Below, one piece after another: positions 13,949-34,123 of a stretch of 64,000 bases of DNA. Under the pieces are notes generated by a model. It made no database searches and was not told the DNA's origin. It worked only from the letters and a program-made list of their open reading frames with translations. The stretch is taken from positions 4,774,001 to 4,838,000 of the forward strand of contig NZ_JAUSVA010000002.1 of assembly GCF_030813695.1 (NCBI RefSeq), written 5' to 3'. A program made the translations under genes and the position numbers. Origin of the DNA: Kitasatospora herbaricolor (lineage in GTDB: Bacteria; Actinomycetota; Actinomycetes; Streptomycetales; Streptomycetaceae). How positions within the stretch are numbered: position 1 is the stretch's first letter; each line of letters opens with the position of its first letter.

Positions 13949-16900
13949 TCAGCCGTAGTAGCCGAGCACGTCGACGATGACGTGGGCGGTCGACCAGCCC
14001 CCGTTGACGATGCTGATCGTGCCGGACGTGCCCACCGTGACCGTCACGTGGTTGGCGATGGTCTGGCCCTTGCTCCAGTTCAGCGCCGAGGCCGTGTTGG
14101 TCCCGTTGAGCGGGTAGATGTCCAGGTGCCCGTCGCTGAGCGGCTCGGTCACCGTCACGTTGAGCACCACGGCCCTGGCCCGGGTCAGCGGCCCGTTCCA
14201 GTCCAGGGACAGGTAGCGGATCACGTGGTCGCTGAGCGGCTCGGGGGAGGTCCCGATGCCCGTGCGGGTGTCCATCAGCCGGTGCGGCACCGTGGTGTGG
14301 AACTTGGCGCCGCCTGTGTCGGCGGTGAAGTAGCCGAACACGTCGGCGATCACGTGCGTGCTCGTCCAGGTGTCGTTCAGCAGGACGACCTTGCCGTCCG
14401 CCCCGACCGGGACGATCACCTGGTTGGCGATGGTCTGCCCGCCGGCCCAGTTGAGGTTGGACGTCGCGGCGGCGCCGCCCGAGGGGTAGGCGGTCAGGTG
14501 GCCGTCCGAGCGGGTGTCGGTCACGGTCACGTTGAGCACGACAGCGGTGACGCCCGAGGCGGGCAGGCCGGCCCGGCCGGCGACGGCCAGCCCGATCGCC
14601 TGGTACGGGTCCGCGGGGCGGCCACCGGTCTGGCCGGCCGCGTCCCGGGTGTCCAGGATCCGGGTCGGGCCCGAGGCCGTGAAGGTCGAGCCGTCCGACG
14701 CCGTCGTGTAGTACCCGAACACGTCGGCGATCAGGTGGGCGGCGTCCCAGCTGCCGTTGTAGAGCTTGACGGTGCCGTCGGCGCCGACCGGCACGGTGAC
14801 CAGGTTGGGGATGGTCGTCCCCTTCACCCAGTTGATGTTGGAGGTTCCCGGCAGTGCCTTGTCCGACGGGTAGACGGTCAGGTGGCCGTCCGCCCGCGGC
14901 TGGGTGACGGTCACGTTGAGCACCACGCCGGTCAGGCCCTGGGTGGGGACGCCGGCCCGGCCGGCGATCTTCAGCGACAGCGTCTGGTAGGCGCCGACGG
15001 CGCTGCCCGCGGTCTGTCCGCCGGTGTCCCGGCTGTCCAGCAGCCGGGTCGGTGCGACGGCCTTGAACGTGCCGGCCGGGCTCTCCGGGAGGGCGGCGCA
15101 CAGGGTGCTGGTGAGGGCGCTCGCGTTCGGGGCACCGAGGCCGGTGGCCAGGTCGTAGCCGGCCGCCGCCTGGTAGAGGGACCCGGCGTAGCCCGACGGG
15201 GTGTAGGCGTTGTTGCCCGTGGTGACGTCGAGGAGGCCCGAGCTGCCCTTGGCGCGGTAGAGCGCGGGGTTGAGGAAGCCCAGCGGTCCGCCGGCCGCGC
15301 AGAGCGCGGAGGCGTTGGCGGAGGCCGCGACGGCGGCCCAGACCGGAGCCGCGCCGCTGGTACCGGCGATCCGGCCCCAGTACTGCTGGCCCTGGGCGTC
15401 CACGCCGACCGCGATCAGGTAGCCGTTGGAGCCGTCCGCCAGCGCGGCGACGTCCGGGACCTGCCGGCAGGCCTGGCCGGCCGGCGCGGTGCAGGGTGCG
15501 CCGCTGTAGCCCGGGCCGGTGCTGCCGGCCTGGAACCCGGTGGCCGCGTCGAGGGCCCAGCTGCGGGACACCCCGCCGCCGGTGGCTCCGCCGCGGTTCC
15601 ACGCCGACTGGACCAGGTCCCCGGCGTGCCCGGTCATCGAGGTGCCGCCGACGCCGGTGACGTACGGCTGGCTCGCCGGGTCGTCGGTGCTGATCCGGTT
15701 GTCGGGGGCCCCGCCGTCCCGGAAGCAGCCGGCGGACCCGCTGTCGCCGGAGGCGGCCACCACGGTCTGGCCCTGCGCCGCCGCCTGCTGGAAGATCAGG
15801 TTCTCGCTGGCCAGCATCGCCGGGTCGGCGTCCGCCTCGCAGACGCCCCAGCTGGTGGACAGCACCTGGGCGCGGTTGTCGTTGACCATCGCCCGGTAGA
15901 CGTCCAGGACGTTCGTCCTGGTGGCGAACTGCGCGTCCGGGCCCTGGTAGACCAGGATGTTCGCGTTCGGGACCAGGCCGAGGACGGTCTCGATGTCGAG
16001 TGCCGACTCGATGCCGTAGTTGCTGAGGTCCGGGGCGTGCGTCGGTCCGCCGTCGATCCTGACCCGGGAGACCGAGGTGCTGGTGCCGTAGCACTGCTGG
16101 TAGGCGGCGACGGCGGCGTCGGAGTAGTCCTCCAGCTCGAACAGCGCCACGGTGCTGCCCGCACCGCCGGCGGTGGCCGGCATGCTGTAGACGGAGGCCA
16201 GCGCGTTGCTGCTGTAGTAGTCCCGGTAGTCCTCGCGGCCGTAGCTCTGCTTCTGCCAGTCCTGGACCCACTGGCAGAGCTGCGGGGGCGTACCGGTGGC
16301 GTGCGGCGCGACGCCGGCGCCGTCGCCGGCGGCGGCCTTGGGCGCGGCCTGGGGTGCGGCGGCCGCCCCGTCCGGCAGCGTGTGGTTGCTGCGGGCCGTG
16401 GCCAGGGTGTTCAGGCCGACCACGCCGGCCACCGAAGCGGCGATGCTGCCCGGCAGCTCCGGCGCCCTGGTGTTGGCGTAGGCGGTCCGGCCGTCGGCCA
16501 GCCGGTAACCGGCGATGTCGGTGCCGAAGGCCTTCTCGGCCTCCGCCACCGTCGCGGTGACCGGGAGGGTGAGGCCGTCCGCGCCGACCGTGCCGGGGTG
16601 CAGGCCGAGATCGGCGAGGGCCTCGGCCGCGCTCTGCAGGGTCGCCCGGTCGGCGCCGAAGCGCTGACCGAACTCACCGGTCCTCAAGTACTGGTGGTAC
16701 TGCGCCGAACCCGGCGTGGAGAGCGCGGTGAGGAAGCTCGTCAGGGCCTGCGGGTCGCGGGGCGACAGGGTGACGCCGAGGTGGAGCACCGTGTCGGCGG
16801 CCGGGGCGGTGGCCGCGACGGCGCCGGCCGGCGCGGTGGGCGCGGTGCCGACCCGCTGCGGCGCCGGTGACGGGCTGTCGGCGAACGCCGTGCCCGGGAC

Positions 16901-17029
16901 GAGCAGTGCGGCCACCAGCGCGGTGGCCGCGGAGCCGGTGAGCAGGCGTCGTGACGACATGCGCCGGGCCCGGGCCGTGGCCGGCCCGGCTATTCGGAAT
17001 CCGCTCGGCGGATCCGTGGGATTGGCCAT
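13949..17029 (-). CDS. Secreted S53 (sedolisin/kumamolisin) peptidase with three C-terminal modules
   Basis: This 1026-residue protein has a signal peptide ending near Ala50 (GTAFA-DS) and a pro-kumamolisin activation domain at about 75-215. The S53 catalytic domain spans about 250-645: Glu341 and Asp345 in IESALDIETV, oxyanion Asp429 in SGDSGSAG, and nucleophile Ser558 in AGTSGAAPVW. GYDLATGLGAP contributes the calcium site. Residues from about 655 hold three tandem modules of about 125 residues with RLLDTR, VVLNVTVT, SNLNW, QTIANQVIVPVGADG and GYYT motifs, the last at the extreme C-terminus. It should be an acid-acting secreted protease. The modules recur in the proteins at 19665 and 27201. 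ATG 17029 has AGGAG upstream; Met24 is an alternative. Confidence 0.88.
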   Translation of the reverse strand: MANPTDPPSGFRIAGPATARARRMSSRRLLTGSAATALVAALLVPGTAFADSPSPAPQRVGTAPTAPAGAVAATAPAADTVLHLGVTLSPRDPQALTSFLTALSTPGSAQYHQYLRTGEFGQRFGADRATLQSAAEALADLGLHPGTVGADGLTLPVTATVAEAEKAFGTDIAGYRLADGRTAYANTRAPELPGSIAASVAGVVGLNTLATARSNHTLPDGAAAAPQAAPKAAAGDGAGVAPHATGTPPQLCQWVQDWQKQSYGREDYRDYYSSNALASVYSMPATAGGAGSTVALFELEDYSDAAVAAYQQCYGTSTSVSRVRIDGGPTHAPDLSNYGIESALDIETVLGLVPNANILVYQGPDAQFATRTNVLDVYRAMVNDNRAQVLSTSWGVCEADADPAMLASENLIFQQAAAQGQTVVAASGDSGSAGCFRDGGAPDNRISTDDPASQPYVTGVGGTSMTGHAGDLVQSAWNRGGATGGGVSRSWALDAATGFQAGSTGPGYSGAPCTAPAGQACRQVPDVAALADGSNGYLIAVGVDAQGQQYWGRIAGTSGAAPVWAAVAASANASALCAAGGPLGFLNPALYRAKGSSGLLDVTTGNNAYTPSGYAGSLYQAAAGYDLATGLGAPNASALTSTLCAALPESPAGTFKAVAPTRLLDSRDTGGQTAGSAVGAYQTLSLKIAGRAGVPTQGLTGVVLNVTVTQPRADGHLTVYPSDKALPGTSNINWVKGTTIPNLVTVPVGADGTVKLYNGSWDAAHLIADVFGYYTTASDGSTFTASGPTRILDTRDAAGQTGGRPADPYQAIGLAVAGRAGLPASGVTAVVLNVTVTDTRSDGHLTAYPSGGAAATSNLNWAGGQTIANQVIVPVGADGKVVLLNDTWTSTHVIADVFGYFTADTGGAKFHTTVPHRLMDTRTGIGTSPEPLSDHVIRYLSLDWNGPLTRARAVVLNVTVTEPLSDGHLDIYPLNGTNTASALNWSKGQTIANHVTVTVGTSGTISIVNGGWSTAHVIVDVLGYYG

Positions 17030-17486
17030 CCACAATCTCCTGGTACGTACGGGAGCGAGGTGCTGCGGACGCAGCCTCTGTGGTGACCCCGGAGCGGTCG
17101 GCCGGGCAGGTCGCGCCGTCGGGCGGCGGCGGATCCGGCCCGAGGCGGACATGCTGTGGAAGGCCGTGCCCGTGGAACGGCCTGAAGCCCCCTCGACTCC
17201 CCCGACCCCCGACGGTGGGATCACCGAGGGTCGTTATATCAGTCGCGGTACGACAATCAGGACCGGGCCGTCGACCCGTCGGGCCCTGTTCACCGTGCCT
17301 CGCCCCGCCACGGCGCCCCAGGTCCACGCCCGAGCCCGCGCGCGCACCCGCGCGCACCCGCTCGGACCCGCGCTCCTGCGCCCGCTCTGCCGTCCACACG
17401 CCCGCGCGCACATGCCGGCGCCCGCTCGGGGAGCCGGGCGGGCGCTGGGACGGGTGCGGGGGAGGGACCGGGACGGCCGGCCGCGG
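17030..17486. other. Intergenic region upstream of the S53 peptidase gene
   Basis: No convincing gene lies in these 457 bases. The part next to the peptidase gene includes an AT-richer patch near 17232-17255 that could hold its leftward promoter. The stretch 17325-17410 is low-complexity, dominated by alternating CGCGCACC-like units. Confidence 0.45.
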
Positions 17487-18815: not shown

Positions 18816-19502
18816 ATGACCCCGAGCCGCACCGAGCCGCGCAGCCTGACCGACGAGCTGTGGGCGTCGATCGAGCCGGTCTACGCGAAGATCCTCGACC
18901 ATCCGTTCCTCGGCGGCCTGACCGACGGGACCCTGCCGCGGGCCGCCTTCCGGCACTTCGTCGTCCAGGACTCGCACTACCTGCGCGACTACGCCCGGGC
19001 CCTGGCCGTCTGCGCCGCCAAGGCGCCCGACGAGGCGGACGTCCGGGCGTTCGCCGACGACGCGGTGGGCGCGCTCGCCGCGGAGCAGGGCATGCACGCC
19101 GAGTTCATGGACGCCTTCGGCGACAGTGCCGAGCAGGCCGCCGCCGAGCCCGTGCTGCCGACCACCCGGGCCTACACCAGCTACCTGCTGGCGACCGTCT
19201 ACGGCGGCTCGTTCGCCGAGGCGGTGGCGGCGGTGCTGCCCTGCTACTGGATCTACGCCCGGGTCGGCCGGGAACTGCTCGCCAAGTCCTCGCCGGACCC
19301 GCTGTACGCCAGGTGGATCGCCACCTACGGCGACGAGGCCTTCCAGTCGGTGGTCCGCCGGGTGCTGGCGCTCACCGACCGGCTCGGCGAGGAGGTCTCC
19401 CCGGCCGAACGGCGGCGGGTGGTGGAGCACTTCACCACCACCTCGCGCTACGAGTGGATGTTCTGGGACGCGGCCTGGCGCGGCGAGACCTGGCCGGTCT
19501 GA
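18816..19502 (+). CDS. tenA: TenA-family aminopyrimidine aminohydrolase (thiaminase II)
   Basis: This 228-residue all-helical protein has the TenA active-site set: Asp52 in FVVQDSHYLRDYARAL, Cys143 in AVLPCYWIYARVG, and Glu213 in RYEWMFWDAAW. The family hydrolyses 4-amino-5-aminomethyl-2-methylpyrimidine to HMP, salvaging degraded thiamine, and can also cleave thiamine. GGAGGGAG at 18801-18808 sets the start at ATG 18816. A THI-box element directly upstream places it under thiamine-linked control, as for thiC at 32285. Confidence 0.92.
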   Translation: MTPSRTEPRSLTDELWASIEPVYAKILDHPFLGGLTDGTLPRAAFRHFVVQDSHYLRDYARALAVCAAKAPDEADVRAFADDAVGALAAEQGMHAEFMDAFGDSAEQAAAEPVLPTTRAYTSYLLATVYGGSFAEAVAAVLPCYWIYARVGRELLAKSSPDPLYARWIATYGDEAFQSVVRRVLALTDRLGEEVSPAERRRVVEHFTTTSRYEWMFWDAAWRGETWPV

Positions 19503-19664: not shown

Positions 19665-20969
19665 TCAGCCGTTGGTGAACCAGCCGGTCACGTCGACGAT
19701 CTCGTGGGTGGCGCCGCTGCGGTTGTCGACCTCCACCCCGCCGCCCCCGAGCTTGGCGGTGACGCCGTTGGCCGAGGTCCCGCCCGCGGTGAAGTTGACG
19801 TTCGAGGTGTTCGGCAGGGGAGTGCCCGCCGGGTGCACGACCAGGTGCCCGGCGGTGTCCGGTTCGGTCGCGGTCACGTTGAGGGTGGCGGCGGTGGCCT
19901 CGGCGGGGATGCCCGCGGCGCCCGCCACGGGCACGGTGGTCGAGCTGTACGGCGGGCGCTTGCCCCCGCTCGTCCGGGTGTCGAGGAGCCGGGCCGGCGC
20001 CATGGCGGAGTAGAGCCCGTGGCCGGTGGGGCCGTAGTACCCCACCAGGTCGACGATGACGTGCACGCTGCCGACGTGGTTGTAGAGGTTGATCTTGTCG
20101 CCGTAGTTCAGCGGCACGACCACCTGGTTGGGAACGGTCCGGCCGGGGGCGAAGTTGATGTTGGAGGTGCTGGGCACGAACTGCAGGGGCGGGAAGACGG
20201 TCAGGAAGCTGTCCGCGTCGGGGTCGGTGACCGTGACGTTCAGGACCACGGCGGTGGCGCCGCGCGTGCCGAGGTCCTCGCGCCCGACGACCAGGCCGCG
20301 GCTGGTGTCCGGCCCGAGCTTGGTGCCGGAGCCCTCGCGGGTGTCCAGCAGCCGGGTCGGCGTCGTGGGTTCGTACTTGGCGGCGGCACCGGGCTGGTAG
20401 TAGCCGAGGATGTCGATCACCACATGGGTCGCGCCGGTGTGGTTGTAGACGTTGATCGTCGGCAGGTGCTGGTCCCCCCCGGAGCCGGGCACGGAGACGT
20501 TCTGCGCCACCGGCACCGTGACCAGGTTGGACACGGTCTGCCCGACGGTGAAGTTCACGCTCGACGTGGTCGGCACCGTCCGCGGGGCGCCCGCCATCGC
20601 GCTCAGACTGAGGTAGCCGTCGGTGGTCGGGGCGGTGGCGGTCACGTTGACCACCACGGCGGTGGCGTCCGCCGGGACGACGTTCGCCCGGGCCGGCGGC
20701 ATGTGGCCGGTGTAGGGCGCGAGCGGGACGGTGAGGTTCTCGTCGGGGCCCATCGGCGAGTAGCTCGCCCACGTGGTGAGGAACGAGTTCCTGGTGTCGT
20801 AGGCGCGGATCGGGTTCACCGGCACGTAGCCGGCCGGCGCGGTGGGAGCCGGGGCGACGGCGGGTGCGACGGCGGGTGCGGCCGTGGCCGTTCCGGTGGC
20901 GAGGGCGGAGAGTGGCAGGGCGAGGGCCGTGAGCAGGGCCAGGGCGGCTGCCGGGCGGCGCAGGAGCAT
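19665..20969 (-). CDS. Secreted protein made of three RLLDTR...GYY modules
   Basis: This 434-residue protein has a signal peptide at residues 1-31 or so (MLLRRPAAALALLTALALPL, ALATGTATAA). Three tandem ~125-130-residue modules then fill the rest, about 45-180, 183-305 and 306-434. Each module starts with P-x-R-x-x-DTR, continues with an A-x-x-x-NVTxT strand, an S-N-V/I-N-F segment and a V-x-N-x-V-x-V-P stretch, and closes with H-x-I-V-D-x-x-G-Y/W-Y/F. The last residues are GWFTNG. There is no catalytic domain, anchor helix or LPXTG signal. Homologous triplets end the proteins at 13949 and 27201. I do not recognise a named family; a carbohydrate- or envelope-binding role is only a guess. Confidence 0.75.
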   Translation of the reverse strand: MLLRRPAAALALLTALALPLSALATGTATAAPAVAPAVAPAPTAPAGYVPVNPIRAYDTRNSFLTTWASYSPMGPDENLTVPLAPYTGHMPPARANVVPADATAVVVNVTATAPTTDGYLSLSAMAGAPRTVPTTSSVNFTVGQTVSNLVTVPVAQNVSVPGSGGDQHLPTINVYNHTGATHVVIDILGYYQPGAAAKYEPTTPTRLLDTREGSGTKLGPDTSRGLVVGREDLGTRGATAVVLNVTVTDPDADSFLTVFPPLQFVPSTSNINFAPGRTVPNQVVVPLNYGDKINLYNHVGSVHVIVDLVGYYGPTGHGLYSAMAPARLLDTRTSGGKRPPYSSTTVPVAGAAGIPAEATAATLNVTATEPDTAGHLVVHPAGTPLPNTSNVNFTAGGTSANGVTAKLGGGGVEVDNRSGATHEIVDVTGWFTNG

Positions 20970-21332
20970 GGTGTGGATTCCCCCAGGAGGACGGAGCGCA
21001 GAGGTGCCCGGCGGCCTGCCTCCGTGAAGCCGCGCGTACCTGATAGACCCCCGGCGGACCGCCGGGGTTGCACGGGTCTCGAAACTTTGTCCGCGGCGGG
21101 CGGGTTGGGGATTCCCGCGCGCTTCCGGGCCGGCCGCCGGGCCCGGATCCGGCGTGGATCCGACCCGGACTCGGGGTCGGGCGTCGGGGTTGCGGCTCGG
21201 GGTGATCTCCGGGTTCTCTCGGGGCCGCAGCCCCTCGTTCCGCCGCATCGGCACCCGTACGATCGAAGTACCGAAGCAGACGGGATGCGGCACCAGAAGG
21301 CAGCCGGCCCGAGGGGAGAGTAAGGAACCGAC
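20970..21332. other. Divergent intergenic region, module protein / DUF5326 gene
   Basis: These 363 bases hold a perfect hairpin with nine-base arms around a single A (21049-21067) in the presumed leader of the leftward gene. An AT-richer stretch near 21080-21092 may carry its promoter. No gene is supported. Confidence 0.5.
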
Positions 21333-21533: not shown

Positions 21534-21539
21534 CCTCGA

Positions 21540-21585
21540 CGCCCGAGCGCCCGCACCCCCGGCCGGGGGTGCGGGCGCTCGGGCG
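21540..21585. terminator. Perfect 46-bp palindrome after the DUF5326 gene
   Basis: Exact 23-base complementary arms separate the convergent DUF5326 gene and the leftward operon ending at 21627. It can terminate transcripts from both sides. Confidence 0.7.
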
Positions 21586-21626
21586 TTCCCCGGCCCGGCG
21601 CCGGTCCGCCTCTGCCCGGGCCGGGT

Positions 21627-22586
21627 TCAGGCGCCCGGCCGCTCCGGCCGCTCCGGCCGGTCCCGCCGCTCCGGCCGTTCCTGCCGGGCCCGGCGTTCGA
21701 GCCGCTCCCGCCGCTCCCGCAGCAGGACGGTGTCGAGGTCCCAGCGGGGCCGCCACCCGGTGGCGCGGGCCCGGCCGATGTCCAGCACCACGCTGCGGGC
21801 CAACTGGTCGACCGCGTACGGGGTCAGGCCCGGCACCCGGCCGGTGCGGGCCGCGAACTCGGCCAGCCGGACGGGCAGGTGGCCGATCCGGGCCTCCCGG
21901 TCGTGGGCGCGCAGCACCCGGCGGACGGCCTCGTCGCGTCGGTACGGCCGGGCGTCGGCGATGTTGTACGCGCCGGGCGCCCAGTCGGCGGCGGCGAGGC
22001 AGGCGTCCGCGAGGTTCTGCACGGCGGTGAGGCTGAGCGCGACGTCCGGTCCGGGCAGCAGCAGCCGCCCCCGGCGGACCCGTTCCAGCAGCCGTGGCAC
22101 CAGGTGCGGATCCCCCGGCCCGTACACCGCGCGGGGGCGCAGCACCACGGCGCCGGCGGCCAGCGCGAGCCGCTCGCCCGCCGCCTTGCTCCGCCCGTAC
22201 GCGTTCAGGTGCCCGCCCGTGGTGGGGTGGTCCTCGCCCACCAGCGAGCGGTCGGGCCTCGGGTCGTAGACGCTCGCGCTGCTCACCCAGACCACCGGCC
22301 GTCCGGCCGCCGCTTCGAGCAGCCGCGCGGTGCCCTCGACGTTCACGGCGTACTGCCGCGCCTCGTCGGGGGAGCCGGGGGCCGGGTCGCCGACCGCCGC
22401 CGCGCAGTGGATCACCAGGTGGGCGCCGGCCAGGTCGGGGCGGCCGGCGGTGGCGTCCCAGGGGACGTGCCGGCCGACCGGGCCCGGGCTGCGGCCCAGG
22501 CAGAGCACCTCGGCGCCCTGCGCGGCGGCCGCGCGGGCCACCTGCGAGCCGCAGAAGCCGCTCGCGCCGGTGACGGCTATCCGCAT
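21627..22586 (-). CDS. NAD(P)-dependent epimerase/dehydratase-type reductase (OleD-like)
   Basis: This 319-residue extended SDR has the nucleotide-binding MRIAVTGASGFCGSQVARAA, a catalytic Ser region (VVWVSSASVYD) and the YGRSK Tyr/Lys pair in HLNAYGRSKAAGE. A run of charged RRERLERRARQERPERR residues ends the protein. In OleABCD and lipstatin-type pathways, enzymes of this 3-beta-HSD-like class reduce the beta-keto acid made by the condensing enzyme. Its start overlaps the P450 stop (TGATG). It is the last gene of the five-gene operon 27065-21627. Confidence 0.8.
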   Translation of the reverse strand: MRIAVTGASGFCGSQVARAAAAQGAEVLCLGRSPGPVGRHVPWDATAGRPDLAGAHLVIHCAAAVGDPAPGSPDEARQYAVNVEGTARLLEAAAGRPVVWVSSASVYDPRPDRSLVGEDHPTTGGHLNAYGRSKAAGERLALAAGAVVLRPRAVYGPGDPHLVPRLLERVRRGRLLLPGPDVALSLTAVQNLADACLAAADWAPGAYNIADARPYRRDEAVRRVLRAHDREARIGHLPVRLAEFAARTGRVPGLTPYAVDQLARSVVLDIGRARATGWRPRWDLDTVLLRERRERLERRARQERPERRDRPERPERPGA

Positions 22587-23737
22587 CACGGCGCGCACTT
22601 CCGCACCCGCGGTCCGGGCCCGGCCGGTGGTTCGGCCCGCGGTCCGGCCCGCATCCGCAGTTCGGCGTACCCGGGCAGGGCGGAGCGGCGGTCCACCCGG
22701 GCGCGCACCACGACGGGCCGGTACGGCGCCAGGGCCAGCAGGAGGTCGGCGAGCTGGGCGCGGGCCAGCCCGGCGCCCGGGCAGGCGTGCGGGCCGGCGC
22801 CGAACACGGCCTGGTTGGCGGAGGCCGGGTCGGCCGGGGTGTCGTCCTGGGCCCGGGCGGCGTGCCGGGCGACCAGGATCAGCCGGTCGCCGCGGCCGAC
22901 GGGACAGCCGGCGACGGTCGCGTCGGCGGCGGCGACCCGGGGCAGGAGCGGGGAGGGCGCGGTCAGCCGGAGCAGTTCGGCGGCCAGCCCGGGCGCGGTG
23001 ACGGGGGTGAGGCCCGCCCAGAGCCCGGCGTCGGCGCACCAGGCGGCGGCCCGCGGGAGGGCGGCCACCGTGGTGTTGACCGCGGCCACCGCGAGCATCG
23101 CGTCCAGGCTGTCGGGGAGCAGCGCGGTGAGTTCGGCGGCGGCCCGCGCGGCGGCGTCGGCGCTGCCGGGGCGGCGCCGGCCGGGCAGGTGGTCCCGGGC
23201 GGTGGCGGCGGCCGCGTCGGTCGCGGCCCGGGCGAGCAGGAGCGGATCGGCGGGGCAGGCGGTCAGCGCGGCGGTGGTGGCACCGGCCAGCTCCGCGGCC
23301 AGTTCGACCAGGTCGACGGTGGCGTGGCCGCCGGGGCCCAGGACGGCGAGCCGCTCGCCGAGGAGGCCCTGCCAGATCGGGCGCAGCCGCGCGACCGCGC
23401 CGCTGCCGAGGTCGGTGGCGAGCGTGCGGCGGGCGGCCCGGTGCCCGGCGCCGTCCTGGTCGAAGAGCAGTCCGCCGTCGGTGAGCCGGGCCGCGGCGCC
23501 GCCCGTGGTGCCCGCGGCGGTGCGGTCCAGCGGGACGCGGGTCAGCACCTCGCGGTAGGCCTCGGCGCCGTGCACCAGGACCGTCCGGCCGATCCGGACC
23601 ACCGGGCGGCGGCGGGTGGCGGCGAGCAGCGCGAACAGCACCGGGTGGCTGCGCAGGTAGACCTTGCGGTCGCGGCGGCGGGCGGTGCGCTGCGCCCTGC
23701 GGGGGGTGGCGTACGGCCCCACCAGCGGCGCGGTCAC
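22586..23737 (-). CDS. Cytochrome P450 with atypical I-helix
   Basis: This 383-residue soluble P450 has the heme motif FGAGPHACPGAG with Cys319 as the thiolate ligand, and the ExxR pair Glu254/Arg257 in AELLRLTAP. At the I-helix, where P450s normally have [AG]Gx[DE]T[TS], this protein has AAVNTT (residues 218-223): the acid is Asn and the Gly is Ala. This may change proton delivery or indicate an unusual reaction. The GTG start overlaps the ligase stop by four bases. No ferredoxin is adjacent. Confidence 0.88.
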   Translation of the reverse strand: MTAPLVGPYATPRRAQRTARRRDRKVYLRSHPVLFALLAATRRRPVVRIGRTVLVHGAEAYREVLTRVPLDRTAAGTTGGAAARLTDGGLLFDQDGAGHRAARRTLATDLGSGAVARLRPIWQGLLGERLAVLGPGGHATVDLVELAAELAGATTAALTACPADPLLLARAATDAAAATARDHLPGRRRPGSADAAARAAAELTALLPDSLDAMLAVAAVNTTVAALPRAAAWCADAGLWAGLTPVTAPGLAAELLRLTAPSPLLPRVAAADATVAGCPVGRGDRLILVARHAARAQDDTPADPASANQAVFGAGPHACPGAGLARAQLADLLLALAPYRPVVVRARVDRRSALPGYAELRMRAGPRAEPPAGPGPRVRKCAP

Positions 23738-25203
23738 CGGGCCAGCTCCTCGGCGCAGAACCGGGACGCGGCGCCGCGGTCGGGCTTGCGCGAGCGCCCG
23801 GCCAGCGGGACTTCGGCGAACAGGACGGCGTCCGGCCGGGCGCTGCCCATCCGGGCCAGCGGTGCCTCCAGGGCGGAGCGCAGCCGCCGTTCGTCCGTCC
23901 CGGAGCGCGGCTGGACCAGAGCCACCAGCCGCTCGTCGCCGTCCCCGTCCGGGACGCCGACCAGTACGGCCAGTTCGACCCCGGGCAGGTGCAGGGCAGG
24001 CTCGTACAGGCCGGGGTAGATGTTCTCGGCGCGGCGCAGCACCATGTCCTTGCAGCGGCCCGCCAGCGCGATCCGGCCGTCCGGGGTGAGCGTGGCGCGG
24101 TCCCCCGTGCGGATCCAGGGGTCGGGGTCCTCGCCGAGGTAGCGGTGGCGGGCGCCGGGCCCGGTGAGCAGCAGTTCGCCGTCCGGGGAGAGTGCGGCCC
24201 GCACACCGGGCAGCGGGTGGCCGACCAGGTCGCCGTCCCCGGTCCAGGCGGCCTTCTCGGCCTCCTCGACGGCCGCGGCGGGGAAGAGTTCGGTCAGTGC
24301 GTAGACGCTCCAGGCCTCGGCGGCGCCGGCCTGCTTGACCCGGCCGAGCAGGTCGGCGCCGGCCGGGGCGGAGCCCGTCCAGACCCGGCCGGAGAAGCGC
24401 GCCCCGGCGGTCAGTGCGGCGCGCAGCTGCGGTGGCGTCAGGTAGGTGTCGGACGGTGCCAGCCGGTGCAGCTGGCCGGCCAGGCCCCCCGGTGAGCGGG
24501 CCGGCAGGGCGACGGTGGCGCCGGCGGCGAGCGCGGGGACGAGCACGAAGAAGGTGCCGCCGAGGACGGTGGACCCCGGCTGCGGGCGGACCAGTCCGGC
24601 GACCGTCCGCAGGCCCGCCGCCAGGCCGGCCCGGCTGTGCACCACGGCACGCGGGCTGGCGGTGGTTCCGGAGGTGAAGACGATCACGGCGTCCGCGTCG
24701 GGGCCGGGGTCGGCGGCGGGTGGCGGGCCGCCGGCGGCCGGCCGCAGCCGGGGCGCGCAGCCGGGCAGCCGCGGTCCGAGGGTGGCGACCGGTCCGAGGG
24801 CGGCCAGCGGCGGCAGCGCGAGCCGGGCCCGGCGGGCCAGCGGCCGGGCCCAGCCGGCCACCGCCTGCGCGGTGGCGTCCGCCAGCACCAGCGTGGGCCG
24901 GGCCAGCGACAGCCGGGCCCGCAGCACGTCGGGCCCGGCGGACGGGTCCAGTACCGCGATCCGCACCCCGAGGTGGTGCGCGGCCAGCATCACGGCCAGG
25001 GCGCGCGGGCCGGGGCGGACGGCCACCCCGAGGGTGTCGCCGGGGGCCAGGCCGCGCCGGTGTAGGGCGGCGGCGTACGCCTCGGCGAGGTCCGCGAGGT
25101 CGGCCGCGCGGATCCGGGTCCGCACCGCGCCGGTCCTGGTCCGGTGCAGGACGGCGGGGCGGGTGCCGGCGGCGCGCAGCGCCGGGACGAGGGTTTCCAG
25201 CAC
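23734..25203 (-). CDS. Adenylate-forming acyl ligase (OleC-like or fatty-acyl type)
   Basis: This 489-residue ANL-superfamily enzyme has the P-loop VFTSGTTASPRAVVHS (around 194-209), a YALTELFP motif in the A5 position, the GDRATLTPDGRIALAGR hinge region and a C-terminal lysine in AGRSRKPDRGAAS. It should activate a carboxylate as acyl-adenylate. In the Ole pathway OleC uses ATP to close a beta-hydroxy acid into a beta-lactone, and the neighbouring KAS III and epimerase suggest that role. Ordinary CoA or carrier-protein loading is the alternative. The GTG start has AAAGG eight bases upstream. An 84-base gap separates it from the GT2 gene. Confidence 0.8.
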   Translation of the reverse strand: MLETLVPALRAAGTRPAVLHRTRTGAVRTRIRAADLADLAEAYAAALHRRGLAPGDTLGVAVRPGPRALAVMLAAHHLGVRIAVLDPSAGPDVLRARLSLARPTLVLADATAQAVAGWARPLARRARLALPPLAALGPVATLGPRLPGCAPRLRPAAGGPPPAADPGPDADAVIVFTSGTTASPRAVVHSRAGLAAGLRTVAGLVRPQPGSTVLGGTFFVLVPALAAGATVALPARSPGGLAGQLHRLAPSDTYLTPPQLRAALTAGARFSGRVWTGSAPAGADLLGRVKQAGAAEAWSVYALTELFPAAAVEEAEKAAWTGDGDLVGHPLPGVRAALSPDGELLLTGPGARHRYLGEDPDPWIRTGDRATLTPDGRIALAGRCKDMVLRRAENIYPGLYEPALHLPGVELAVLVGVPDGDGDERLVALVQPRSGTDERRLRSALEAPLARMGSARPDAVLFAEVPLAGRSRKPDRGAASRFCAEELAR

Positions 25204-25287
25204 GGGAGGACCTTTCTGTGCGGACGGCAGGGGCGCGGGCGGGAACGCAGGGGCTGCGGGCGGCGGTGTGGTGCGGGCGCGGCGCCG

Positions 25288-26064
25288 TCAGCGAGGATCG
25301 GTGGAGTGCCGGCCGCTGCCCCGGTCCAGGTACCAGCGGGCGGTGGTCAGCACGCCGTACGCCTTGAGCCGGCGGGTGGAGTTGTGCACCACCATCGCCC
25401 GGCAGCGGCTGATGGCGGTGGTGTGCCGGCGGACCCGGTTGAGGAACGCCCGGTCGGTCGGTGACGGGCGCCGCGGCATGCCGCCCACCGCCAGGTACAG
25501 CTCGGCGCTGACGGCCATGTTGTTGCCGGCGTGCATCCGGTACGGCGCCAGGAACCCGTGCCGCCGGCGGTGGGCCGGGCGGATCCGTCCGAAGCCGGCG
25601 GCGGTGGCCACCAGCAGGCGGAAGCCGGCCCGGCCGAGCGGGCCGTGCTCGTCCCGGCGGGCGAGGACGCGGCCGCAGACCAGGCCGGGGGCCTCGGTCA
25701 GCGCGATCCGGGCGGCGGCCGTCCAGGTGGGCTGCGGTACGCAGTCGGCGTCGGTGCGGGCGAGCAGCCGCGCGCCCCGGGCGACGGCGTGCCGGAACCC
25801 GGTGTCGACCGCGCAGCCGACGCCCTTCTCCGGCTCGACCAGCACCTCGACCGGGAAGGGCGCGCAGGCGGCGAAGGCGCGGGCGAGTTCGGCCGTCCGG
25901 TCGGTGGAGCCGTTGTCGACCACCAGCAGGGTGAAGTCCCGGTCGTGCTGGCGGGCGAGGGCGGTCAGGGTGTCGCCGATCCTGGCCTCCTCCTGGTAGG
26001 CCGGGACGATCACCCAGAGCGGGGCCCGGCCGGGGGCGGGGCCGGTGGCGTGGGCGGTGCTCAC
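25288..26064 (-). CDS. GT2 glycosyltransferase
   Basis: This 258-residue GT-A protein has LWVIVPAYQEEARIGDTLTA at the N-terminus, VVDNGSTDRTAEL and a TDADCVPQPTW metal-binding motif. It has no clear membrane helices. It could glycosylate a small molecule or lipid made by the neighbouring enzymes; the donor is unknown. Its GTG start overlaps the KAS III stop (GTGA), so it is translationally coupled to the condensing enzyme. Confidence 0.8.
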   Translation of the reverse strand: MSTAHATGPAPGRAPLWVIVPAYQEEARIGDTLTALARQHDRDFTLLVVDNGSTDRTAELARAFAACAPFPVEVLVEPEKGVGCAVDTGFRHAVARGARLLARTDADCVPQPTWTAAARIALTEAPGLVCGRVLARRDEHGPLGRAGFRLLVATAAGFGRIRPAHRRRHGFLAPYRMHAGNNMAVSAELYLAVGGMPRRPSPTDRAFLNRVRRHTTAISRCRAMVVHNSTRRLKAYGVLTTARWYLDRGSGRHSTDPR

Positions 26065-27065
26065 GATGCCTCCCAGACCATGGTCATCAGGCTCACGCCG
26101 CCGCCCAGGCCCACCAGCAGGACCTTGTCCCCGGGGTTCAGTTCGCCCTTCACCCGGTCGAGTTGGACCCCGAGGGTGGCGCTGGCGATGTTCCCGAGGT
26201 CCGGCACCGTGAGCACCAGCTTCCCGGCCGGGACGCCGGTGAGTTCGACGAAGCGCTCCAGGTAGGGCACGGTCACCTGGTGGACCAGGACGCGGGCGTA
26301 GGCGTCCCAGCCGAGGCCGGTCCGGGCCGCGACCCGGGTCAGGATGTCGCCGCCGATCTTCTCGAAGACGCCGCGCAACTCCTTGCCGCCGCCGCGGAAG
26401 TAGCTGTACTCGTCGCCGCGCGGGTGCCGGGACCCGCCGCCGGGGATGCCGCCGACCGCCCAGTGTTCGGAGGCCGTCTCGGTCTCGACGTCGAGGATGC
26501 CGCCGCGTTCCACCGGCTCGACGACCACCGCGGCGCCGGCGTCTCCGAAGGTGTAGCCGGCGAACCCCTCCCGGAAGTCGGCGAGAGCGCCGGGGTCGCG
26601 CCGCATGGCCCGGCTGGGCGTCTCGCCGGTCACCACCAGCGCGCGGCGGGCCCGGCCGGCCAGGATCATGGCGCGGGCCAGGTCGATCCCGTTGAGAAAG
26701 CTGTTGCAGGCGTTGCTGACGTCCAACGCGTTTGCCTGGGAGCCGAGTTCGGCCTGCACCAGATGAGCGGTCGCGGGCTCGCAGACGTCGCGGGTGGCGG
26801 AGGCGTAGAGCAGCAGGTCGATGTCGAGAGGGTCGATCCCCCGGGCGTCCAGGGCCCGGCGGGCGGCGCCCAGCGCGAGGGTGGAGGCGTACTCGCCCTC
26901 GGCGGCGAAGTGCCGGGTGACGATGCCGGTCGCCTTCTCGAACATCCGCTCCGGCAGCCGGAGTCCGGCCGTCACCTCGTCCTGGAGCTGCTGTGAGGTC
27001 AACCGTCGGGCGGGCAGGTACGAGCCGACGGCCGTGATGCCGACTCGCGGTATCGGGAGGTCCAT
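26061..27065 (-). CDS. Ketoacyl synthase III / OleA-like condensing enzyme
   Basis: This 334-residue thiolase-fold enzyme has the KAS III triad: Cys120 in VSNACNSFLNG, His262 in VHQVTVPYLE and Asn292 in DLGNIASATLG. TGIVTRHFAAEGE and FGDAGAAVVVEP also fit the FabH/OleA superfamily. It should start the pathway by a decarboxylative or head-to-head Claisen condensation. With an ANL ligase and a 3-beta-HSD-like reductase downstream, an OleA-type role is attractive, but FabH-like priming cannot be excluded. It heads the operon; ATG 27065 has GAGGG unusually close upstream. A palindrome at 27101-27116 lies in the leader or promoter. Confidence 0.85.
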   Translation of the reverse strand: MDLPIPRVGITAVGSYLPARRLTSQQLQDEVTAGLRLPERMFEKATGIVTRHFAAEGEYASTLALGAARRALDARGIDPLDIDLLLYASATRDVCEPATAHLVQAELGSQANALDVSNACNSFLNGIDLARAMILAGRARRALVVTGETPSRAMRRDPGALADFREGFAGYTFGDAGAAVVVEPVERGGILDVETETASEHWAVGGIPGGGSRHPRGDEYSYFRGGGKELRGVFEKIGGDILTRVAARTGLGWDAYARVLVHQVTVPYLERFVELTGVPAGKLVLTVPDLGNIASATLGVQLDRVKGELNPGDKVLLVGLGGGVSLMTMVWEAS

Positions 27066-27100: not shown

Positions 27101-27116
27101 TGAGTACGGGTACTCA
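27101..27116. promoter_or_regulatory. Candidate operator upstream of the KAS III operon
   Basis: TGAGTACGGGTACTCA consists of two exact seven-base arms around GG. It is 36-51 bases upstream of the first start codon of the operon, in a locally AT-richer stretch. No regulator gene is adjacent, so the cognate protein is unknown. Confidence 0.5.
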
Positions 27117-27200: not shown

Positions 27201-30017
27201 TCAGCCGTTGGTGAAGTACCCGAACAGGTCGGCGATCACGTGGGTGCTGCCCATGTGGTTGAAGACGTCGAACCTGCCGTCGGCGCTCACCGGTGTGGTG
27301 ACCTGGTTCGGCACGTCGCGGCCGGGCACCGGGTTCAGGTTGCTGGTCCCGGGGAGGCCGGTGCCGGTGGCGTGCACGATCAGGTGGGTCTCGGCGGTCG
27401 CCTCGGTGGAGGTGACGTTCGCGACCGCCGCGAAGGCGCCGGCCGGCACGCCGCCGACGGTCCGCGAGCCGCCCTGGCCGAGCGGGCCGCCGCCCTGCCG
27501 GGTGTCCAGCAGCCGGGCGGGTACGACGGGCGTGAACAGGCCCTTGCCGTCCGGGCTGTAGTAGCCGAAGACGTCCACGATCACCTGGGTGCTGCCCAGG
27601 TGGTTGTAGAGGTTGACGGTGCCGTCGGCGCCGACCGGGACGATCACCTGGTTGGGGACGATCTGCCCGGGACGCACATTCAGGTTCGAGGCGGACGGGC
27701 GGCTGGTGCCCGCCGGGTAGGCCGTCAGGAAGCTCTCGGCCGTGGCATCGGTGGCCGTGACGTTGAGGACCACCGAGGTGGCGTTCGCGGGCACGCCGCC
27801 CGTCCCGGTGACCTTCAGCGGGCGTACCGCGTCCTGGCCGACCGGGGCGTCGCCGGGCTTGCGGGTGTCCAGCAGCCGGGCGGGCGCGACACTGCTGAAC
27901 TTCCCGGTGCTGCCGGCCTTGTAGTACCCGAGGACGTCCACCACCGCGCCCACCGCGCCGCCGGTGTTGGCGATGGTGACGTTGCCGTTCTCGCCGATCG
28001 GCACCGTCACCACGTTCGCGATGTCCTGGCCGGGGCCGTAGTTGACGTTCGAGGTGGCCGGCCGCTCACCCTTGTTGGGCGTCGCGCTGAGGAACCCCTT
28101 GCCGGTGGCGCCGGTGGCGGTCAGGTTCAGCACGACCGCGGTGGCGCCCTCCGGCACCACCGGGATCCGGACGTTGTTGTACTCGACCTGGTTGTCGCGC
28201 ACGTAGACGTCGAGGGAGCTCCAGGCCCCGCGCTGGGCGTAGCGGCTGTTGGTCACCCGGGTGTCGGCCACCCGGACGGGCGCGATCGCGGTGAACCCGG
28301 CCGCCTCGTAGGCGGCGGTCACCTGCAGGGTGGTGCTGGCCGTACGGTCGGCCCAGTCGGTGGCGGTCAGCGTGACGGTGTAGGTGCCGGGCCGTGCGTA
28401 GGTGTGCCCGAAGCCCTCGTAGGGGGTGGAGGAGGAGGTGCCGTCCCCGTAGTCCAGCTGGTAGTTCTTGATCTGCCACGGGGTGGTGGTGCCCGCCGCG
28501 TTCAGGTCGAAGCCGAGCGGGTTGGTGCGGCTGGGCGTCGCCCCGAGCACCGGCGTCAACGGGGCGTCCGGCCGGGCGTCGACGTAGCTCGGGTACGAGC
28601 CGACCTGGTGGCCGGTGCTGTCCGTCGCCGTGACGTACGCGGCGAACACGCCGGCCCGTGTGTAGGTGTGCTGCACCTTCGTCGCGGTGGTCACCGAGGG
28701 GGCGGAGCCGTCACCGAAGTCGTAGCTGTAGGTGACGGCGGTCGGCCAGGTGTTGTACGGCGTCGCCGTGAACTCGACGGCGAACGGGAGCGCGCCCCGC
28801 AGGCTGGGGCCGGCGGGGTGGTCGACGCCGCGCGCGGTCAGCCCGACCTCGTTCAGGCCCTGCACCTCGGCCGCGCCGCGGTCGCGCAGGCTGCCGTGCG
28901 GGCCGGTGCCGGCGACCAGCGGATCGTCGACCACGGCGCTGCCGTACAGGTCGGTGTCGGGCAGGCCCGGCACGTCCGGGTCGGCGGAGTCGATCGCCGC
29001 GGTGTCGTCGTTGCCGGGCCGGTGGAAGATGCTGTCGTGGAAGGTGATCGCCGCGTCCACGTCGTGCCCGCCCTGGCCGGTGGCCGCGGTGAAGGCCGCG
29101 GGGGTCGGGTGCCCGGCGCCGCCCCAGGTGTAGGCCTCGGTCCCGCTCAGCGGGTGGACGATGTTGTAGTCGACCTTCGTCGCGGCGGTGGAGCCGGCCG
29201 CCACCGAGATCGGCGCGCCGCGCGGGACCGTGCCCTCGGAGACGACGATGTTGTTCTCGACCACCGAGCCGGCCGAGGCGCCCAGCAGGGCGATGCCCGG
29301 GCCGTTGCTGCCGACCACGGTGTTGTTGGCGACGACCGTCCCGGGCCCGTCGGTGATGCTCAGACCGCCGCCCTGGGAGGTGCCGATGTCGTTGCCGACA
29401 ATGGTGGTCCGCTGCGAGCCGGCGTCCACCACGACGCCCCCGGAGGCGTAGAACACCGACCGGGTGACGGCGACCTGGTCGCTGTGACCGGTCACCCGCA
29501 GCGCGGCCGAGCCGGCCGGCAGGGCCTTGCTCCGGTCCCACTCGGTCATCAGCTGGTCGACCTGGATCCGATTGGAGTCCTTGATGACGACCGGCTGCGC
29601 GGTGTCGTAGGCGAGGAAGCCCCGGATCACCACGTCGGAGACGCCGTCCAGGGTGAAGAGGTGCCCGGTGGTGCTGGTCAGGGAGGGCTGGTGGTTGTAG
29701 AGGTACATGGCGAGCGGCGCGCCGTCGATCACGATCGGATGCCCGGGGGTGCCCGAGCGGGTCACCCGGACCTCACCGGTGAGGTCGGTGTCCGGCGCGA
29801 CCTGGACGGTCTGGCCGGGCTGCGCCGCGTCGACGGCCGCCTGCAGGGTGCAGTACGGCCGGGCGGCGGTGCCGGTGCCCGCGTCGCTGCAGTTGGCGGC
29901 GGCCCGGTTGTCGACGTTCAGGACGGCGCCCGCGTCGGCGTGCGCCGTGACGGCGGGCAGACCGAGGACGGCGGAGACCGTGGCGGCCGCCAGAGCGACG
30001 GCGTGACGAATGGGCAT
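27201..30017 (-). CDS. Secreted beta-helix / PKD protein with three C-terminal modules
   Basis: This 938-residue protein has a signal peptide cleaved near Ala27 (AVTAHA-DAG). A right-handed parallel beta-helix follows at about 35-400, with repeated turns such as TTIVGNDIG, TVVANNTVVGSN and SVVENNIVVSEG. Two PKD-type domains (YDFGDGS and LDYGDGT, at about 415-485 and 495-560) come next. Three ~125-residue modules run from about 562 to the end and finish GYFTNG. The beta-helix suggests polysaccharide binding or cleavage, but catalytic residues are not evident. The module triplet matches those of the proteins at 13949 and 19665. GGGGG precedes ATG 30017, as in the gene starting at 20969. Confidence 0.82.
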   Translation of the reverse strand: MPIRHAVALAAATVSAVLGLPAVTAHADAGAVLNVDNRAAANCSDAGTGTAARPYCTLQAAVDAAQPGQTVQVAPDTDLTGEVRVTRSGTPGHPIVIDGAPLAMYLYNHQPSLTSTTGHLFTLDGVSDVVIRGFLAYDTAQPVVIKDSNRIQVDQLMTEWDRSKALPAGSAALRVTGHSDQVAVTRSVFYASGGVVVDAGSQRTTIVGNDIGTSQGGGLSITDGPGTVVANNTVVGSNGPGIALLGASAGSVVENNIVVSEGTVPRGAPISVAAGSTAATKVDYNIVHPLSGTEAYTWGGAGHPTPAAFTAATGQGGHDVDAAITFHDSIFHRPGNDDTAAIDSADPDVPGLPDTDLYGSAVVDDPLVAGTGPHGSLRDRGAAEVQGLNEVGLTARGVDHPAGPSLRGALPFAVEFTATPYNTWPTAVTYSYDFGDGSAPSVTTATKVQHTYTRAGVFAAYVTATDSTGHQVGSYPSYVDARPDAPLTPVLGATPSRTNPLGFDLNAAGTTTPWQIKNYQLDYGDGTSSSTPYEGFGHTYARPGTYTVTLTATDWADRTASTTLQVTAAYEAAGFTAIAPVRVADTRVTNSRYAQRGAWSSLDVYVRDNQVEYNNVRIPVVPEGATAVVLNLTATGATGKGFLSATPNKGERPATSNVNYGPGQDIANVVTVPIGENGNVTIANTGGAVGAVVDVLGYYKAGSTGKFSSVAPARLLDTRKPGDAPVGQDAVRPLKVTGTGGVPANATSVVLNVTATDATAESFLTAYPAGTSRPSASNLNVRPGQIVPNQVIVPVGADGTVNLYNHLGSTQVIVDVFGYYSPDGKGLFTPVVPARLLDTRQGGGPLGQGGSRTVGGVPAGAFAAVANVTSTEATAETHLIVHATGTGLPGTSNLNPVPGRDVPNQVTTPVSADGRFDVFNHMGSTHVIADLFGYFTNG

Positions 30018-30095
30018 GGTGTGTGTCCCCCTGGAAGGCGCCGCCCGTGGAGCTGCGCGACCTGCTGACCGGCGGGGCGGCGACGATCCCGGACC

Positions 30096-30105
30096 GAACC
30101 GGTTC
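30096..30105. promoter_or_regulatory. GAACCGGTTC palindrome upstream of the beta-helix gene
   Basis: A perfect ten-base palindrome lies about 80 bases before the start codon, followed by two direct GTGAAGATC copies at 30109-30117 and 30129-30137, exactly 20 bases apart. Suggestive of a regulator site; no regulator is adjacent. Confidence 0.3.
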
Positions 30106-30169
30106 TGAGTGAAGATCAGACTATCGCCGTGAAGATCCCGTGCGCCACGGGATACGGGGCCGGGAACAA

Positions 30170-30213
30170 CCGGGTGCGGGGCCCGCGCCGGTCGGCACGA
30201 GCCCCGCACCCGG
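30170..30213 (-). terminator. Hairpin terminator after the flotillin gene
   Basis: A perfect 13-bp G/C-rich stem with an 18-base loop starts seven bases past the flotillin stop codon. Confidence 0.6.

Positions 30214-32160: not shown

Positions 32161-34123
<1,963 letters not shown>

Follow-up and report, generated by a model that had tools for sequence, protein, structure and literature searches.

Five adjacent genes on the minus strand of Kitasatospora herbaricolor, running from position 27065 to 21627 of the 64,000-nucleotide stretch analyzed here (contig NZ_JAUSVA010000002.1 of assembly GCF_030813695.1, positions 4,774,001 to 4,838,000; hereafter the window), encode a β-ketoacyl-acyl carrier protein (ACP) synthase III (KAS III), a family 2 glycosyltransferase (GT2), an ANL ligase, a cytochrome P450 and an extended short-chain dehydrogenase/reductase (SDR) (Table 1). 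An initial annotation, made from the sequence alone, had described five leftward genes of these families with overlaps at three of four junctions and had likened them to an OleABCD-type operon without OleB. Open reading frame (ORF) calls and Pfam matches confirm this layout. Overlaps of 4 bp are found at the KAS III/GT2, ligase/P450 and P450/SDR junctions, the last one only with GTG as start codon of the SDR gene, and a gap of 84 bp separates the GT2 and ligase genes. The longest ORF of the KAS III gene begins at 27101. The genome comprises 9.58 Mb in three contigs, with the KAS III gene located at 4.80 Mb on the 9.19-Mb contig.

Table 1 Features of the five-gene locus in window coordinates
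Feature	Position	Strand	Family matches and remarks
KAS III / OleA-like thiolase	26061..27065	-	PF08545/PF08541; gene 1; ATG at 27065 behind AGGGT
GT2 glycosyltransferase	25288..26064	-	PF00535
ANL ligase, OleC-like	23734..25203	-	PF00501 (AMP-binding); GTG start, AGAAAGG stretch upstream
Cytochrome P450	22586..23737	-	PF00067, 28.6 bits (weak, above the 22.8 cut-off)
Extended SDR, OleD-like reductase	21627..22589	-	Epimerase PF01370 and 3Beta_HSD PF01073; GTG start, ATG directly after at 22586
Perfect 24+24 bp inverted repeat	21539..21586	.	Behind the last gene (SDR); likely terminator

Conservation and gene order

Within the window's genus, the KAS III is present at an identity of at least 80% in 23 of 37 genomes, and an even sample of the class yielded matches at E ≤ 1e-60 in 22 of 394 genomes belonging to 10 of 138 genera (own genome included in both counts). 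A scan of named genomes gave 512 relatives, and the best 80, which were kept, include Streptosporangium, Planobispora, Planomonospora, Nonomuraea, Actinomadura, Catellatospora, Hamadaea and other genera. Altogether, 126 family loci (window excluded) were merged to 119 distinct ones by removal of 7 duplicates. Six of these lie on short contigs and were set aside, so that gene-order counts refer to the 113 distinct loci with at least 5.6 kb downstream.

The complete five-gene set is found in 102 of these 113 loci, all from other genomes. The search for the same gene order elsewhere, as suggested by the initial annotation, thus recovered the set itself, but the window's own order KAS-GT2-LIG-P450-SDR (LIG, ligase) in only 30 complete loci, compared with 71 displaying KAS-GT2-P450-LIG-SDR; in the last one, L158, the ligase gene lies on the opposite strand. 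The 11 incomplete loci comprise six KAS-P450-SDR loci of Nonomuraea, two KAS-GT2-LIG loci, two without an SDR match (one per order) and a single KAS III gene in a metagenome-assembled genome. Directly after the KAS III gene stands GT2 in 106 of the 113 loci. Since the genes stay linked in genomes with a KAS III identity down to approximately 41%, their grouping is not due to chance. Split matches were seen for the ligase of L047 and the P450 of L058 and L095, each in two pieces, possibly reflecting insertions or assembly faults.

Recurring neighbors were sought in 20 representative loci among ORFs of at least 130 amino acids (E ≤ 1e-20, at least 4 loci). This gave a Streptosporangiaceae neighbor (7 loci), an opposite-frame shadow of the same, and a P450-containing group (4 loci, from Actinocorallia, Actinomadura, Microtetraspora and Sphaerisporangium). 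None of the recurring groups in these 20 loci reaches the window's genus. In the window itself, a TenA-like gene (18816-19502, plus strand) and thiC (32285-34123, plus strand) flank the region, one per side. Around the operon, three predicted secreted proteins are encoded on the minus strand (19665-21293, 27201-30209 and 13949-17224), which by eye all contain repeats following the pattern AVVLNVT.T...TSN.N...G....N.V.VPV...G.V...N..G..HVI.D..GYY. One of them carries PKD and β-helix domains and another a pro-kumamolisin activation domain; the one of 542 residues has no Pfam match at E ≤ 1e-5. With regard to chromosomal position, the operon is located mid-chromosome rather than in an arm, at 0.50-0.59 along the contig in 8 of 9 genomes of the window's genus (contigs above 7.8 Mb), the exception being G004 with the operon at 0.96.

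Relationships of the encoded enzymes

For phylogenetic trees, 25 chosen family loci out of the 119 distinct ones were combined with the window and with reference groups, among them a canonical group taken from 10 of the 45 genomes above the OleA cut-off (L224 and L225 are not in the trees). Rows L007 (KAS III) as well as L107, L259, L267 and L270 (SDR) were skipped for length or for want of a match. A further reference group is formed by seven N-type ole-like loci (L064, L221-L223, L226-L228), which carry an OleB-family hydrolase and gave no match to the family GT2 and P450.

Aligned to OleA of Xanthomonas campestris (27.7% identity over 310 columns), the KAS III of the window and all 26 family rows display the OleA set E117, C143, H285 and N315, as do all 7 N, all 4 K and all 10 canonical OleA rows. 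These numbers, which we take to be those of the OleA residues, fit the aligned positions; in the numbering of the KAS III protein (P0001), E117 corresponds to Glu108. The glutamate is directly followed by proline in the window and in 26 of 26 family rows; the same E-P motif occurs in 126 of 126 family loci, a biased sample because the loci were partly found via an EPA-bearing pattern. Cys143 and Glu117 of OleA are named in an earlier report (PMC4090904). Smith et al. (2020, PMC7064751) state that the Claisen step cannot do without this glutamate and that, among characterized thiolases, only OleA homologs have it; with two exceptions, their OleA proteins carry proline directly behind it. At position 117, Escherichia coli FabH carries F, the FabH-type rows L001, L002 and L003 of the window's own genome carry S, T and Q, respectively, and the divergent own-genome KAS-like rows L004 and L005 carry P.

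In the trees, family, N and K rows together make up one side of a branch, with support of 99/98 in a first tree and 100/97 in a second one calculated without the long rows L004-L006. Canonical OleA proteins form a separate clade (100/100), and FabH proteins including E. coli FabH a clade of their own (100/99), outside of which the window's KAS III falls. A joint clade of FabH and the window's branch was rejected (approximately unbiased test, p-AU 0.014). The OleA-like rather than FabH-like nature of the KAS III, on which the initial annotation had made its inference depend, is supported by residues and by position outside FabH; membership of the canonical OleA clade is not. Since N and K rows nest among its members, the KAS III tree does not show the family as a separate clade. 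As a side observation (KAS III rows L064, L219-L223, L226-L228, L063 and L065), the N loci combine a KAS III placed among those of the family with a ligase and an SDR on the side of canonical OleC and OleD, as though gene shuffling had taken place from one pathway to another.

Used alone as classifiers, the OleC and OleA equivalog profiles were dropped: they do not settle kinship, and trees and residues were therefore used instead. Structural models would be of little help in telling OleA from FabH, given the similarity of KAS III folds. On the OleA profile, full-length canonical OleA proteins reach 405-464 bits, two fragments about 300 and many FabH-like matches about 105, with the family lying in between.

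The ligase was compared in an 80-row tree with the 29 ligases nearest by profile from 16 cluster-free genomes and with 8 ANL ligases of the own genome (own-genome rows L231, L236, L250, L254, L257 and L281 were left out and L294 was skipped). Against these, the family ligases stand beside those of the N and canonical OleC group (100/99), with N plus canonical OleC (100/100) and the family (100/99) as separate sub-branches; in this midpoint-drawn tree, the family counts as sister to OleC provided that the other ligases contain the root. Accordingly, the OleC kinship claimed initially stands as a grouping against other ANL ligases but not as membership of the canonical OleC clade or model. Additionally, the C-terminal pattern R..K.DR is common to the family ligase and OleC (RNSKIDR). 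A profile of the family ligase found a best match of 132.5 bits in the 16 cluster-free genomes (100 of 110-337 candidates scored per genome) compared with 372-520 bits in six family genomes (150 of 265-416 candidates), so that, in the sampled genomes, presence of the ligase coincides with that of the pathway.

For the SDR, the two top-scoring NCBIfam models are those for OleD, with 84 and 80.5 bits; both scores fall short of the 580 cut-off, and the next model reaches 50.9 bits. This agrees with the OleD-like kinship proposed at the outset. The SDR tree contains the SDR of the window a second time, as row L268, which was entered as an own-genome epimerase.

Both remaining enzymes retain hallmark residues. 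In the P450, the heme ligand Cys319 and the ExxR motif (E254, R257) are invariant in 10 of 10 rows, and the I-helix reads VNTT in five of the six rows of the window's branch and VTTT in the sixth (L097). As the four rows of the other branch read GTET at this place, the usual I-helix acid is replaced in the window's branch. The GT2 has its DxD motif (D105-A-D107) and D204 invariant in 11 of 11 aligned rows. Sequence searches of the Protein Data Bank returned only general relatives for both enzymes. A second P450, to which the family profile gives about 170-205 bits, is encoded upstream on the other strand in, e.g., L160, L198 and L205 (Actinomadura, Catellatospora, Hamadaea), and such an upstream P450 is present in 37 of 129 loci (duplicates unmerged). 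Locus L097 (genome G197) contains two family GT2 genes in the order KAS-GT2-LIG-GT2-P450-SDR, perhaps a two-sugar variant.

OleB searches and split loci in Nonomuraea

An OleB profile built from 10 OleBC-fusion loci was applied to all ORFs of at least 120 amino acids in the fetched stretches. It scored its 10 source loci at 437-653 bits and recognized the hydrolases of all seven N loci, which had no part in the profile, at 115-195 bits; the idea that N loci are OleB-less was rejected on this ground. In the family-locus set, no five-gene locus was matched, the only match being the N locus L064. For genome-wide searches, a second profile was built without any of the tested genomes, and either all or 144 of up to 199 candidates were scored. 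Three positive genomes reached 396-398 bits, compared with a best score of 53.6 bits in the own genome and of at most 149.2 bits (G045) in 11 family genomes. The lack of OleB suggested by the initial annotation was thus found again next to the five-gene loci and in the own genome and, as the locus-level profile search matched no five-gene locus and the genome-wide one nothing near the positives, OleB absence looks like a trait of the family.

An olefin pathway in which a hydrolase encoded elsewhere in the genome supplies the OleB function is very improbable. Other α/β hydrolases do exist in family genomes, and the 149.2 bits of G045 fall within the range of the N hydrolases, though these were scored with the other profile; yet the 11 family genomes hold no match near the positives, and the conserved P450 and GT2 would not be needed for a hydrocarbon.

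The six incomplete Nonomuraea loci keep KAS III, P450 and SDR together, with neither ligase nor GT2 at the locus. In all five of the split genomes searched, one family ligase each is present at another place (372-507 bits). A family GT2 was found in none of these five, with best scores of 48.7-54.7 bits compared with 370.9 bits in the intact N. dietziae (mostly drafts; 150 of 156-185 candidates scored in five genomes, 137 of 137 in the sixth). Since split Nonomuraea genomes keep the ligase elsewhere but lack the family GT2, the ligase looks like a core component of the pathway and the sugar step like dispensable, optional tailoring. The five genomes count as one observation with five witnesses, because the ancestral event may be common to them.

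Proposed pathway, precedent and significance

Taken together, the most probable reading, to which we give slightly better than even odds (roughly 0.52), is a lipid pathway of OleACD-like type that lacks OleB, is extended by two tailoring enzymes and has a β-lactone as most likely product. Judging from its OleA residues, the KAS III would join two acyl-CoAs head to head to give a 2-alkyl-3-keto acid, which the SDR, as suggested by its OleD kinship, would reduce to the β-hydroxy acid. The OleC-like ligase would adenylate this acid and most likely close the β-lactone, which would persist because no OleB decarboxylates it. The P450 may then oxidize an acyl chain and the GT2 may glycosylate the new hydroxyl group in a late, dispensable step, the enzyme being absent from five relatives. 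The OleACD-like reading is well supported for kinship and residues and moderately for mechanism; we infer the β-lactone formation, its chains and its sugar. Of the β-lactone decorated by P450 and sugar transferase envisaged by the initial annotation, the OleA/OleC/OleD kinship and the lack of OleB have held, and the β-lactone stays a prediction.

With the OleABCD systems (X. campestris; OleBC fusion in Micrococcales), the window's set shares OleA residues, an OleC-related ligase and an OleD-like SDR, but it differs by lacking OleB and by the additional P450 and GT2. With its KAS III and ligase placed apart from the canonical OleA and OleC clades, it represents, judged by its sequences, an OleACD-like branch and not simply an OleABCD pathway short of a gene. 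For the nocardiolactone and lipstatin routes, whose genes are named NltABCD and LstABCD, respectively, we know of no GT2 and P450 pair. By description, both resemble the proposed pathway as OleACD systems without OleB in which the β-lactone is kept (PMC7064751, accessible part).

The closest precedent is Actinoplanes atraurantiacus, for which Smith et al. (2020, PMC7064751) describe OleA, glycosyltransferase, OleC, P450 and OleD together, with no candidate oleB in the genome, and propose a route through condensation, reduction, hydroxylation and glycosylation that includes closure of a β-lactone ring. The five functions and the OleB absence are the same as in the window, whose set would thus, going by that description, be a member of the A. 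atraurantiacus-type cluster. The A. atraurantiacus region represents one strain with a product proposed without isolation, whereas the window's set spans many genomes. The statement of the initial annotation that no product is described hence holds for a proven product, but the set and its β-lactone reading are already in print. The A. atraurantiacus OleA is 29% identical to that of X. campestris and hydrolyzed p-nitrophenyl hexanoate (PMC7064751). A search for Actinoplanes relatives via another family, itself a guess and run with no positive control, gave 0 of 22. No later work on the five-gene set or its product was found in the open-licence literature, by searches none of which was aimed at Nonomuraea, and the accessible part of an article on Gram-positive ole genes (PMC7158056) does not mention Streptomyces, P450 or glycosyl genes.

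Several points weigh against the OleACD-like reading. The likeness to A. atraurantiacus rests on the published description, as its sequences are not among the best 80 of the 512 loci, and none of the acyl-CoAs tried yielded a Claisen product with its OleA, although the protein precipitated and little was available (PMC7064751). The SDR is placed by OleD with weak support (84/57). The KAS III clade stands apart from both FabH and canonical OleA, with no firm order among the three in the trees, and the divergent own-genome row L006 also aligns E at position 117, though without the following proline, C143, H285 and N315. For the KAS III of the window, the OleA equivalog model NF006720 gives 157 bits at a cut-off of 285, and the NCBIfam β-ketoacyl-ACP synthase III model (165 bits) slightly exceeds the OleA-type model (159 bits). 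Such KAS III/FabH-type scores, together with the solved structures closest by sequence, headed by KAS III and a PQS enzyme with OleA entries next, would suit a FabH/PqsD-like enzyme, either decarboxylative or working with a ketoacyl carrier, in a set making an oxidized, glycosylated polyketide-like lipid. This is unlikely in view of the Glu117-Pro motif in 26 of 26 rows and the rejected grouping of FabH with the window's branch. No carrier protein was found among the recurring neighbors either, in a scan from which a small ACP would escape because only ORFs of at least 130 amino acids were examined.

On the side of the ligase, the A3 motif is altered to TSGTTASPRAVVH, with no PKG, and the OleC model gives 47.3 bits on the protein (cut-off 900), its equivalog search in the own genome placing the ligase at rank 28 of 62 rows with 37.6 bits. 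Like the KAS III, the family ligase lies outside the canonical clade. Possible, if rather improbable, is a Claisen start without lactone: the ligase would convert a chain to acyl-AMP or acyl-CoA, either to feed the condensation or once it has taken place, and the pathway would end in a glycolipid, namely an oxidized and glycosylated β-hydroxy acid, ketone or alcohol. The position outside the OleC and N clade and the low OleC-model score favor it, as does the A8 region KDMVLRRAENIYPGLYE, which by eye is nearer to ordinary acyl-CoA ligases than to the OleC consensus; the R..K.DR end shared with OleC and the 100/99 grouping with OleC-type rather than acyl-CoA ligases speak against it.

The five-gene set is real and conserved across actinomycetes; its product is a prediction. 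β-Lactones inhibit lipases and proteases, and to our knowledge no glycosylated, chain-oxidized β-lactone of the proposed type has been isolated. To the published description, the present comparison adds the breadth of the family, its family-wide OleB absence, the split loci of Nonomuraea and a ligase placement next to OleC. Since natural variants exist, such as Nonomuraea strains without the family GT2 and with the ligase elsewhere, core and tailoring steps are separable by strain comparison, making the product question directly testable. Genome comparison thus turns a one-strain curiosity into a conserved actinomycete pathway. Tentatively, and as a rather long shot, the family might even represent a widespread, uncharacterized class of actinomycete glycolipids made by a separate OleA/OleC-like branch, with a kept β-lactone or equivalent head-to-head dialkyl core and the sugar as an optional cap; given the mid-chromosome position of the operon in the window's genus, these may serve a cell-envelope or developmental role rather than that of a strain-specific antibiotic.

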